From a virus, in IMG/VR virus record IMGVR_UViG_3300032334_001196, positions 1-36,188 of that record: a stretch of 36,188 nucleotides of DNA; one strand, given 5' to 3'. The notes under the pieces are model-generated. The model was not told the DNA's origin. It worked only from the letters and a program-made list of their open reading frames with translations, and searched no databases. Below are positions 33,415 to 36,188 of the stretch, piece by piece (position 1 is the first letter of the stretch; each line of letters opens with the position of its first letter). The translations under genes were made by a program, and so were the position numbers.

Positions 33415-33639
33415 ATGACTGAACAACAAGAACATCTTGCAAATCTTGTAAAGCAAGCACAAGACCTATCCCTTGAATTGGAAGGACTACAAACCAAGGC
33501 CACAGTAAAAAGAGAACTATTTTTGAAAGTACAAGGTGCGATTGAGTATCTTACGCAAACAGGTGTATCTCTTCCAGAACCAGAACCAGAAGAAATCCCA
33601 CTATCAGAAACAGAAGAAACTGCGACAGAAGCAGAATGA
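33415..33639 (+). CDS. Small coiled-coil protein
   Basis: 74 residues. Residues 1-50 are a helix with heptad spacing (QQEHLANLVKQAQDLSLELE, then KRELFLKVQGAIEYL). The tail is acidic (PEPEPEEIPLSETEETATEAE). It is widely seen in T4-like cyanophages as a conserved unknown. The late promoter before it and the terminator after it make a single-gene late unit. It could be an assembly chaperone, but that is only suggested by shape. Confidence 0.75.
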   Translation: MTEQQEHLANLVKQAQDLSLELEGLQTKATVKRELFLKVQGAIEYLTQTGVSLPEPEPEEIPLSETEETATEAE

Positions 33640-33645
33640 TTTACG

Positions 33646-33668
33646 GTCCCCGAAAGGGGACTTTTTTT
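33646..33668 (+). terminator. Rho-independent terminator
   Basis: GTCCCC-GAAA-GGGGAC, a six-pair stem with a stable GAAA loop, followed by seven T. It lies seven bases after the stop of the coiled-coil gene and just before the next promoter. Confidence 0.92.
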
Positions 33669-33673
33669 ATGCC

Positions 33674-33707
33674 TTGACGGGGCAGTAGGTCCGTGCTATG
33701 ATAAATA
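33674..33707 (+). promoter_or_regulatory. Combined sigma-70 / late promoter of leader copy A
   Basis: TTGACG (33674-33679) and TATGAT (33697-33702) with a 17-base spacer; the late motif GATAAATA (33700-33707) overlaps the -10 box. The stretch GTGCTATGATAAATAGG is identical to that before psbA. Confidence 0.8.
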
Positions 33708-33710
33708 GGT

Positions 33711-33800
33711 GTTAAGGAATCAACACATTCCTTAACCTTCTGCAACCGAGATCATCAGAAGTAAAGCGTCTCTCATACCCACACTGGAGGGTGGTGTAGG
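33711..33800 (+). ncRNA. Structured leader RNA, copy A
   Basis: Three successive hairpins. The first is GTTAAGGAA / TTCCTTAAC around TCAACACA (33711-33736). The second is CTTCTG / CAGAAG around a 13-base loop (33737-33761). The third has CCCACACT pairing with GGTGTAGG, with one mismatch, around GGAGGGT (33778-33800). Copy B before psbA has the same order, the same loops 1 and 3, and compensatory changes in the stems. The transcript leads into the beta-helix virion gene at 33850. Resembles in location and company the PhotoRC class of cyanophage psbA leaders; no covariance search was possible. Confidence 0.75.
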
Positions 33801-33819
33801 AAATACTGTACTTGTTCAG

Positions 33820-33827
33820 TATAAATA
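33820..33827 (+). promoter_or_regulatory. Late promoter TATAAATA after leader A
   Basis: Exact late consensus between leader A and the ATG at 33850. Transcripts from it would lack the structured leader, so the gene could be made both with and without it. Copy B has no equivalent. Confidence 0.7.
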
Positions 33828-33849
33828 AGCTACATATGAAATTTATAAA

Positions 33850-35016
33850 ATGTCCCTATCCACCAATACCGTTTATAGAGTTTTTGTAGAAAAACTTGGT
33901 GGTGCTAATCCATCTACCTTTGTGGGGGATGAAGGTGAAGTATTTTATAATCCAAATGATGGTGTTCTAAAACTATCAGATGGTTCTACTCCAACTGGAA
34001 TAGTTATGAACCCAATAATGCCAGTTGGTTTTTTTACACCACCAGACAATCACTGGTATGTAAATCCAAATAGAACTGATACATACACTTCAACTGGTTC
34101 TGTTGCTGCTCCTTATAAAACTGTTGGTGCAGCATTAAGTGCAATTCAAAATGCTCTACAAACTGGAATTGTATCTTTTACTGATAATGGAGATAGTATT
34201 GCAAATCCACAATTTATTATTCTTCAAAGTTCTACAACAGAGAATATAGGACTTACAACAGGACACATTTATATTCAAGGAGATACTACAAGTGGTTCTC
34301 AAATGCCCATATGGATTTATGGAACAGTCACCATCAATCCAACAGTAGGAAGTTTATATCAAAACCGATTTGGTATTTCTAATCTTGGTATTGTAAATAC
34401 TGGAAGTAATCCTGGTATTGGGACAACACACTCATTAATAGTTACTGGTTCGGCACCTCTTCGTTGTTATCTAAATGATTGTAATATCATTGCAGGTTCT
34501 ACAGGAAATCAGGCAATTTTTATGGATAATAGTGGAACTGGAACTCAATTATATGCAGAAGTTCAACAATTATCCAGAGCAGGTACATCAGGAACTGATT
34601 ATGTTGTAAAAGTCAGTAAAGGATATGCATTTTTTAGTAACTGCTCAACTGGTGGTTCAACTGCTACATTTAATGTAAGTGGAACAGGAACTCTACAAAT
34701 CCAGTATAGTAAAATTGACAGTGCTGGGGAAGCCTGTGTAAAAGTTGATGGTGGTGGAACTGCCATAGTTACTAGCACATCTCTAACAAATACTGTAGGA
34801 CATGGAGTATCAATGGTTGGTGTTAGTACTCTTGTAACAATCAATAATTACTTTGATATACCTACATCTCCTGCTACTAACAGAGCAATTGCTGGCGTCT
34901 CTGGAGTTACTGTTCTTCATTCCAATACAGTAGTTGCTTATTTAAAAAATTCAAAGTATAGCACTGCAATTGGTGCTGGATATGTTGGATTAGTAACTGC
35001 ATTAACTGCATTATAA
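33850..35016 (+). CDS. Beta-helix virion (tail-fibre/receptor-type) protein
   Basis: 388 residues. Residues 20-50 (FVGDEGEVFYNPNDGVLKLS, then DGSTPTG) match the short N-terminal module seen on many phage fibre and tropism proteins. Residues of about 68-350 consist of short strand-turn repeats rich in Gly, Ser, Thr and Asn (LYQNRFGISNLGIVN, FNVSGTGTLQIQYSKIDSAG), typical of a right-handed parallel beta-helix. No catalytic motif of a depolymerase is obvious. Probably a host-contact or decorative virion protein. It is unusual for such a gene to carry a psbA-type structured leader. Confidence 0.7.
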   Translation: MSLSTNTVYRVFVEKLGGANPSTFVGDEGEVFYNPNDGVLKLSDGSTPTGIVMNPIMPVGFFTPPDNHWYVNPNRTDTYTSTGSVAAPYKTVGAALSAIQNALQTGIVSFTDNGDSIANPQFIILQSSTTENIGLTTGHIYIQGDTTSGSQMPIWIYGTVTINPTVGSLYQNRFGISNLGIVNTGSNPGIGTTHSLIVTGSAPLRCYLNDCNIIAGSTGNQAIFMDNSGTGTQLYAEVQQLSRAGTSGTDYVVKVSKGYAFFSNCSTGGSTATFNVSGTGTLQIQYSKIDSAGEACVKVDGGGTAIVTSTSLTNTVGHGVSMVGVSTLVTINNYFDIPTSPATNRAIAGVSGVTVLHSNTVVAYLKNSKYSTAIGAGYVGLVTALTAL

Positions 35017-35034
35017 TTTATTTGAGGAAGGGGG

Positions 35035-35068
35035 TTGACAGCATTTCCTGACAGTGCTATGATAAATA
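35035..35068 (+). promoter_or_regulatory. Combined sigma-70 / late promoter of psbA
   Basis: TTGACA (35035-35040) and TATGAT (35058-35063) with a 17-base spacer, overlapped by the late motif GATAAATA (35061-35068). This allows expression by the unmodified host polymerase and by the late polymerase. Confidence 0.85.
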
Positions 35069-35072
35069 GGTC

Positions 35073-35190
35073 TTAAGGAACCAACACATTTCTTAACCTT
35101 GCCGCACCAGGACTAGGCAAGTAAAATCCGTCCTTATACCTATGCAGGAGGGTTGCATAGGAATACTTTTACCGTTCAGCACCTCCTGAA
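35073..35190 (+). ncRNA. Structured psbA leader RNA, copy B (PhotoRC-like)
   Basis: First hairpin TTAAGGAA / TTTCTTAA around CCAACACA (35073-35096). Second hairpin CTTGCC / GGCAAG (35098-35121). Third hairpin CCTATGCA / TGCATAGG around GGAGGGT (35139-35161), perfect. A fourth, TTCAG / CTGAA (35175-35190), has the loop CACCTC, and CCTCC at 35182-35186 is complementary to GGAGG in the third loop, so a pseudoknot or kissing contact is possible. No good ribosome site precedes psbA, so translation may depend on this RNA. Confidence 0.8.
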
Positions 35191-35216
35191 CTCATATCTA
35201 CCCCTTTAACGAAAAA

Positions 35217-36188
35217 ATGACTGCTACAATTGCTACACGCAAAACTTTTAATGCCTGGGACGAATTTTGTTCCTGGGTGACTTCTACCGATAACCGTCTT
35301 TATGTCGGTTGGTTCGGCGTTCTGATGATTCCCTGCCTTCTTGTTGCTACTTCGGTTTTTATTATTGCATTTATTGCAAATCCCCCTGTAGACATTGATG
35401 GCATTAGAGAACCTGTTGCTGGGTCTCTAATGTGGGGAAACAACATCATCTCTGGTGCTGTTGTTCCTTCTTCTAATGCGATTGGACTGCATCTCTATAA
35501 TCTTTGGGATGCTGCTTCTATTGACGAAGCACTTTATAATGGTTGGGCATATCAAGCAGTGGTATTCCACTTTTTGATTGGTGTCTGGTGCTATCTTGGT
35601 CGGGAATGGGAACTTTCATACCGTTTGGGTATGCGTCCTTGGATTGCAGTTGCTTATAGTGCTCCTGCTGTTGCTGCAACCGCAGTATTCTTGATTTATC
35701 CCTTTGGTCAAGGAAGTTTTAGTGATGGAATGCCTCTTGGTATTTCTGGAACTTTTAATTATATGCTTGTATTTTCTGCAGAGCATAATATTCTTATGAA
35801 TCCATTTCATATGTTAGGTGTTGCTGGTGTTTTTGGTGGTGCTTTTGCTGGAGCAATGCATGGTTCACTAGTGACTTCTTCACTAGTCCGTGAAACTACT
35901 GAAACCGAATCACAGAACTATGGATACAAGTTCGGTCAAGAGGAGGAAACTTATAATATAACTGCGGCACACGGATATTTCGGTCGTCTTATCTTCCAAT
36001 ATGCTTCGTTCAACAACTCTCGTTCATTGCACTTTTTCCTTGCTGCACTTCCTGTAGTTGGTATTTGGTGTGCTGCTATGGGTATTGCAGTTTCATCTTT
36101 TAACTTGAACGGTCTAAATTTTAATGAATCAATCCTTGACAATCAAGGTCGTCCAATTCCTACTTGGGCAGATATGCTCAATAGGGCA
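35217..36188 (+). CDS. psbA: Photosystem II D1 protein, 5' part
   Basis: The first 324 residues of D1 (normally about 360); the C-terminal Mn-ligand tail lies beyond the window. Key residues are present: Glu130 (high-light form), Tyr161, Asp170, Glu189, His190, His198 (P680 ligand) and His215 (iron/quinone side). Position 195, His in many cyanobacteria, is Asn here ([10 protein letters not shown]). No intron interrupts the visible part. Phage D1 replaces the rapidly damaged host protein during infection, keeping electron flow going. Driven by the dual promoter and structured leader upstream. Confidence 0.98.

Follow-up and report, generated by a model that had tools for sequence, protein, structure and literature searches.

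A second PhotoRC-II leader, upstream of a non-psbA gene, as a probable mark of gene insertion beside psbA

The DNA stretch analysed here as a whole, hereafter the window, is an IMG/VR virus record of 36,188 bases, whose 3' end falls inside psbA. It contains two copies of the PhotoRC-II leader RNA, each preceded by a combined promoter: copy 2 is located in front of psbA and is an ordinary, standard leader, while copy 1 precedes a gene encoding a 388-aa protein, a position which is unusual yet recurrent. In the favoured interpretation, to which a probability of roughly two in three is assigned, copy 1 is the mark of an insertion, leader and promoter having been shuffled as a cassette beside psbA, and is itself largely dispensable. 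The second copy does not yet show that the new gene belongs to the psbA control circuit, and most likely came with the insertion of the gene; an Rfam match before a new gene need not mean a new regulon member. The question bears on psbA itself, a much-studied host-derived cyanophage gene, and on how phages set its expression.

Results and discussion

Two promoter and leader cassettes

A scan of the window with the whole of Rfam revealed one tRNA and two PhotoRC-II RNAs (RF01717) spaced by 1361 bases, copy 1 scoring 56.7 bits and copy 2 scoring 50.9 against a cut-off of 39; PhotoRC-I and wcaG gave nothing above the Rfam cut-off across the 36,188 bases. These results agree with a preliminary description, which proposed a promoter-plus-leader cassette occurring twice, about 1.36 kb apart, and a PhotoRC-type motif. 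From the promoter through hairpin 3 the copies share 72.7% identity, while 200 shuffles gave at most 55.8%. The features of the region are:

33645-33668, + strand: terminator-like hairpin of the ORF at 33415-33639, directly 5' of the copy 1 promoter
33674-33707, + strand: copy 1 promoter, TTGACG-17-TATGAT (33674-33702, 10/12) overlapping ATAAATA
33711-33736, + strand: copy 1 hairpin 1 (P0), just 3' of the promoter, its stem compared with shuffles across leaders
33723-33814, + strand: copy 1 PhotoRC-II (RF01717), 56.7 bits
33737-33761, + strand: copy 1 hairpin 2 (P1), arms 33737-33742 and 33756-33761
33748-33772, + strand: copy 1 pseudoknot, GAGAT (33748-33752) with GTCTC (33768-33772)
33778-33800, + strand: copy 1 hairpin 3 (P2), with a C-A mismatch (33780/33798)
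33820-33827, + strand: late promoter TATAAATA between the copy 1 leader and the 388-aa gene (core 33821-33827)
33850-35016, + strand: 388-aa gene between the leaders; strand-rich product, putative virion or adhesin role
35035-35068, + strand: copy 2 promoter, TTGACA-17-TATGAT (35035-35063, 11/12) overlapping ATAAATA
35073-35096, + strand: copy 2 hairpin 1 (P0)
35084-35174, + strand: copy 2 PhotoRC-II (RF01717), 50.9 bits
35098-35121, + strand: copy 2 hairpin 2 (P1), arms 35098-35103 and 35116-35121
35109-35134, + strand: copy 2 pseudoknot, AGGAC (35109-35113) with GTCCT (35130-35134)
35139-35161, + strand: copy 2 hairpin 3 (P2)
35174-35191, + strand: copy 2 hairpin 4 (P4), GTTCAG-CACCTC-CTGAAC, with a C-rich loop; absent from copy 1
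35217-36188, + strand: psbA (photosystem II D1; PF00124, E 1.2e-87), running off the window

Copy 2 is thus upstream of psbA (start 35217), copy 1 upstream of the 388-aa gene (start 33850) and not of psbA. The fusion of a sigma-70 promoter to a late promoter, also part of the preliminary description, is found in both cassettes, where a TTGAC-17-TATGAT site is overlapped by an ATAAATA core, at 33701 and 35062 respectively. Of the + strand sigma-70-type sites here, these are the top two; one site on the minus strand scores 10/12 as well, and the total in the region, five against 6.2 expected by chance, is no excess. ATAAATA cores in the whole window are fewer than expected by chance (13 vs 18). 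A short overlapping reading frame, beginning with ATGAAATTTATAAAATG, is also found at 33836-33889, just 5' of the start of the 388-aa gene, and its opening bases are kept in relatives.

Comparative support for the leader structure

Homologous leaders were collected by scanning IMG/VR with a pattern describing the third hairpin, and leader counts refer to the matches listed. The pattern fixed ATACC, GGAGGGT and GGAA(A)TA, the conservation of which is by construction, while arms and upstream sequences were left free. For covariation analysis, 80 leaders, at least three of which are not psbA leaders, were picked from 118 listed, with an identity limit of 88%.

In this set hairpin 3 and the pseudoknot are paired in 99.3% of the cells, and both-sided changes occur at 10 of the 12 pairs, four of five in the pseudoknot and six of seven in hairpin 3. 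The changes number 179, against 39 in shuffles, none of 500 being as high; similarly, none of the 500 matched the observed paired share, both-sided pairs or cells, or covariation score, while for further pair types the observed value was reached by 22. Folding of single leaders is unremarkable (z -1.1 and -1.4, with an overall range of -1.1 to -1.8), and at minimum energy copy 1 takes a fold other than that of the family. The support for the structure is for this reason comparative. The z values are what would be expected of chance hairpins between genes, with no functional RNA, an explanation refuted by the pairing and covariation figures; both copies, moreover, match the Rfam model, and such an origin is regarded as extremely improbable. 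Taken together, sequence comparison argues that the PhotoRC-II leader is a functional structured RNA, as the preliminary description had maintained on the grounds of covariation.

That description had been based on compensatory changes between the two copies (CTTCTG/CAGAAG vs CTTGCC/GGCAAG and, in hairpin 3, T-A to C-G and G-C to A-T), which are correct, but had overlooked the C-A mismatch in hairpin 3 of copy 1. Its three hairpins are present; it had missed a pseudoknot of 5 bp and, before psbA only, a hairpin with a C-rich loop, and the loop 1 motif YCAACACA, said to be kept, is absent from most of the leaders listed.

The pseudoknot joins the hairpin 2 loop, by 5 bp, to the sequence immediately 5' of ATACC. 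It could be parsed in 120 of 123 distinct listed leaders, 115 of which pair at all five positions and three more do so one base downstream; the three unparsed ones carry AGGAA and would give four pairs. Among 112 verified psbA leaders, five pairs are found in 108 and four in one, with three unparsed. Alleles include GAGAC/GTCTC, AGGAC/GTCCT, AAGAC/GTCTT, GAGGC/GCCTC and GGGAT/ATCCC, and the two copies in the window carry different ones.

Of 118 leaders, 112 exceed their shuffled controls for hairpin 2 and 106 for hairpin 1. For hairpin 4, a best-stem test placed 118 of 118 leaders above shuffles, but is lenient, scoring also an unrelated stem in copy 1; for this reason a C-rich loop was required in a second test, passed upstream of psbA by 112 of 112 verified leaders, as compared with 194 of 2240 shuffles. 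Where copy 2 has hairpin 4, copy 1 carries the late promoter at 33820-33827. Another stem is predicted there at about 33803-33822; it has no C-rich loop and, by eye, seems not kept in relatives.

Hairpin 4 of copy 2 (35174-35191) has the loop CACCTC, for which AGGAGG in the loop of hairpin 3 would be a possible pairing partner. Together with the following base, CACCTC corresponds to the usual anti-Shine-Dalgarno letters of 16S rRNA. The C-rich loop is kept in other psbA leaders, and inspection by eye suggests that the G-rich loop of hairpin 3 and its C-rich counterpart in hairpin 4 perhaps form a kissing contact near the psbA start, which copy 1 would perhaps be unable to make. With its four hairpins and pseudoknot, the 5' leader of psbA probably sets the stability or the translation of the mRNA. 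The fuller structure, including pseudoknot and hairpin 4, offers concrete mutations.

Distribution of single and paired leaders

Among the matches listed, psbA is found directly behind the leader in 110 of 120 distinct pattern contexts. Eight contexts are unlabelled: L062, L065, L109, L122 and L141 reach the contig end, L097 and L110 begin like psbA, and the record of L095 is without an Rfam match. Only two, the window and L068, precede a gene other than psbA. Phage records holding psbA number 512. A group of 23 isolate genomes was chosen by hand, six from DNA matches, 13 from psbA matches and four besides: 19 carry exactly one PhotoRC-II, immediately upstream of the annotated start of psbA or in contact with it, the distance in S-SM2 being about 200 bases, and four (S-CREM1, S-CAM7, S-PM2 and S-CAM3) gave no PhotoRC-II match in this search, run with the stricter filters of Infernal, which weak second copies could escape.

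Besides the window, 154 of 157 distinct IMG/VR records match PhotoRC-II and eight have two copies, a count enriched by the 14 records found via the 388-aa gene (five of them also via the RNA pattern), and affected by the many records which are short fragments, where a second copy may fall outside. The 388-aa gene is present in five of the eight (G036, G067, G068, G069 and G072), while other genes lie between the leaders in G039, G053 and G116, and at least three different gene sets are found in this position; several records seem nearly identical, and the eight correspond to about five arrangements. Two further records came from a scan for leaders with ATAAATAA behind them: in G157 copy 1 precedes the same 388-aa gene, cut by the contig end, and in G156 the gene behind the leader is another one, with the same N-terminal domain (69% over 48 residues). 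No leader was found in cellular genomes by a scan with the exact pattern, which diverged copies could escape.

Relation of copy 1 to the 388-aa gene

The preliminary description was right in placing one leader before a non-photosynthetic gene, and proposed that this would extend the psbA regulon to that gene. According to such a reading, copy 1 is kept for a psbA-like control of the 388-aa gene at the RNA level (by light, redox or stability), the sigma-70 site being used early and the late site afterwards. It is in keeping with this that a leader precedes seven of the eight genes with the N-terminus of the 388-aa protein, and also other non-psbA genes in G039, G053, G116 and G156. Moreover, the arms of hairpin 2 are kept in copy 1, and the five copy 1 alleles retain 5, 5, 4, 5 and 4 of the five pseudoknot pairs.

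Against it, a full-length ortholog in L193 (93% identity) is preceded only by TTGACA...TATAAATAAG, the late promoter being kept, and no leader was detected before it even at E up to 0.5. Likewise no leader precedes the gene in L187, L188 and L200, which carry homologs with a different N-terminus. A separate late promoter follows the copy 1 leader, and a block of 41-46 bases containing it precedes six of six full-length relatives of the gene; judging from this sequence conservation, the late promoter appears to be the conserved control element of the 388-aa gene. In addition, hairpin 4 with its C-rich loop is absent from copy 1.

The stability of hairpin 3 also differs. In three of five copy 1 alleles (window, G067, G068) it is less stable than in all of the 112 verified psbA leaders; the G072 allele is near the bottom of the range, as is the psbA leader of the same record, and the G157 allele is normal. 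Hairpin 3 is on the whole weaker before the 388-aa gene (one-sided Mann-Whitney p 1.5e-4, five alleles vs 112 psbA leaders), a value which is optimistic, the five alleles being related. The comparison was made initially with 119 leaders, seven of them on contigs too short to show psbA, and the 112 verified ones gave the same result. No weakening is seen where a leader precedes other cargo (G039, G116, G156; one-sided p 0.81); these leaders, like the intact hairpin of G157, speak for the regulon extension. The evidence is mostly, though not decisively, against this extension, which is considered unlikely. In the insertion interpretation, the 388-aa gene would be transcribed mainly from a late promoter of its own, which closely follows the leader, and copy 1 would therefore be largely dispensable for it.

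Origin of the second copy

A relative with an unfilled site is present in L009, where a homolog of the ORF at 33415 (96.6% over 58 of 74 residues), the terminator, a single leader and psbA follow one another with nothing between; terminator and flank share 89.9% DNA identity with the window over 367 b. Similarly, in the isolates DSL-LC02 and DSL-LC03 a relative of ORF 32823 is directly followed by the psbA leader and psbA. In G039 a relative of the same ORF adjoins a 126 aa gene with its own leader, followed by a 161-aa gene and then by the psbA leader. An HNH-like motif was recognized by eye in the 161-aa product, which also resembles a helix-turn-helix family, at a score under the Pfam cut-off. 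The same two genes (126 aa, 161-aa) are carried by G053, and in G039, G053 and G116 alike the cargo is separated from the psbA leader by a gene with an HNH-like motif. A related HNH-like gene is found in L186 (383-964), after half of the first hairpin of a leader and before a full leader and psbA; the arrangement (L186:300-1135) makes homing into the leader possible.

Copy 1 alleles vary among phages sharing the 388-aa gene. When leaders are ranked by local bit score, copy 1 resembles leaders from other phages more closely than the copy 2 of its own genome in five of the six two-copy genomes compared; the rank of that copy 2 is 15 in the window, 63 in G067, 19 in G068, 70 in G039 and 45 in G116. 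A tandem duplication of the psbA leader within one genome, followed by divergence, is hard to reconcile with these five; in the sixth, G072, the two copies are mutually closest (89.3% over 103 b), as a duplication would predict, a closeness which fits shared selection as well. This origin is held to be very improbable. For copy 1 as an insertion mark, the events envisaged are that it arrived by recombination between phages, as the 388-aa gene was inserted beside psbA, leader and promoter acting as an exchangeable cassette which would provide homology on both sides. Since an insertion of this kind accounts for the doubling, no new regulon is needed.

A broader proposal, offered tentatively and with less than even odds, is that PhotoRC-II and its early/late promoter constitute a landing pad for the swapping of gene modules beside psbA, helped by free-standing HNH-like genes, the four-hairpin, pseudoknotted leader perhaps including the contact between loops 3 and 4 which copy 1 cannot make. 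If so, each module swapped in would bring a working promoter and a folded leader. Leaders with and without the neighbour gene, the unfilled site and the leaderless ortholog are natural experiments, by which RNA function may be told from an insertion mark.

Other elements were observed around psbA in these records. A Group I intron (RF00028, 67.1 bits) is located at L186:2176-2407, just behind the matched part of psbA; psbA is divided in L193 as well, and broken into several pieces in L199; a glutamine riboswitch (RF01739, 53 bits) is found at L009:10215-10273, about 3.5 kb downstream of the region where psbA starts.

The 388-aa gene

Residues 5-56 of the 388-aa protein match phrog_36222, a family of unknown function (E 5.9e-12); the similarity of the N-terminus to the Mtd N-terminal domain (E 0.072) is below the cut-off, and there is no significant match to any Pfam family. 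A profile search against solved structures was also performed, its best match (E 0.26) being attributable to chance, and AlphaFold2, run on an alignment of seven sequences at least 94% alike, produced no usable fold (mean pLDDT 33). The label of beta-helix virion gene, used in the preliminary description, is therefore unproven. The body of the protein is found behind a different N-terminus in L200, L187 and L188, while in L224, near a contig end, PhotoRC-II and a late promoter precede a gene with the same N-terminal domain and another body. Because N-terminus and body occur in different combinations, a tail or receptor-binding role is suggested; domain swapping of this sort would suit such proteins, as in phage adhesins.

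Comparison with known systems

Both leaders score above the gathering threshold of PhotoRC-II (RF01717; Weinberg et al. 2010, PMC2864571). With respect to the excerpted text of that report, copy 2 precedes a cyanophage psbA as described, while copy 1 differs in preceding a non-photosynthetic gene. The leader defined here extends beyond the RF01717 model at both ends, by hairpins 1 and 4, and includes a pseudoknot with covariation, which a covariance model cannot hold. In excerpts of Rivas 2020 (PMC7657543), RF01717 is listed as a family for which the Rfam and ZWD versions are not the same, in a set with added covarying pairs; according to this listing, the pseudoknot pairs may have been seen before.

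Sigma-70 and gp55 late motifs, together with a 5'-UTR hairpin, are reported upstream of cyanomyovirus psbA in the excerpted text of Puxty et al. 2018 (PMC5931967), so that a combined early/late promoter with a structured 5' UTR before psbA is already in print. The same excerpts treat psbA alone and do not name PhotoRC-II, and their phage, S-PM2, has no RF01717 match at E up to 0.1 with strict filters. As the psbA arrangement has been published, it is copy 1 that needs explaining.

Promoter and stem-loop cassettes of T4-like phages, called PeSLs, were reportedly described by Arbiol in 2010 and Comeau in 2014. The likeness lies in repeated units of promoter and stem-loop beside exchanged genes; the difference is that the stem-loops here belong to a psbA leader with covariation and a pseudoknot, accompanied by a late promoter. 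As to PeSLs as sites of homologous recombination, allele swapping and an unfilled site are observed here, from which recombination itself is inferred. For another cyanophage region, PeSLs were judged an unlikely cause in the excerpted text of PMC4503421.

In the excerpted main texts of openly licensed papers, no report was found of PhotoRC-II before a gene other than psbA, or of two PhotoRC-II copies per genome. The two cassettes represent a known RNA family in a new neighbourhood, with a structure richer than its covariance model can hold.
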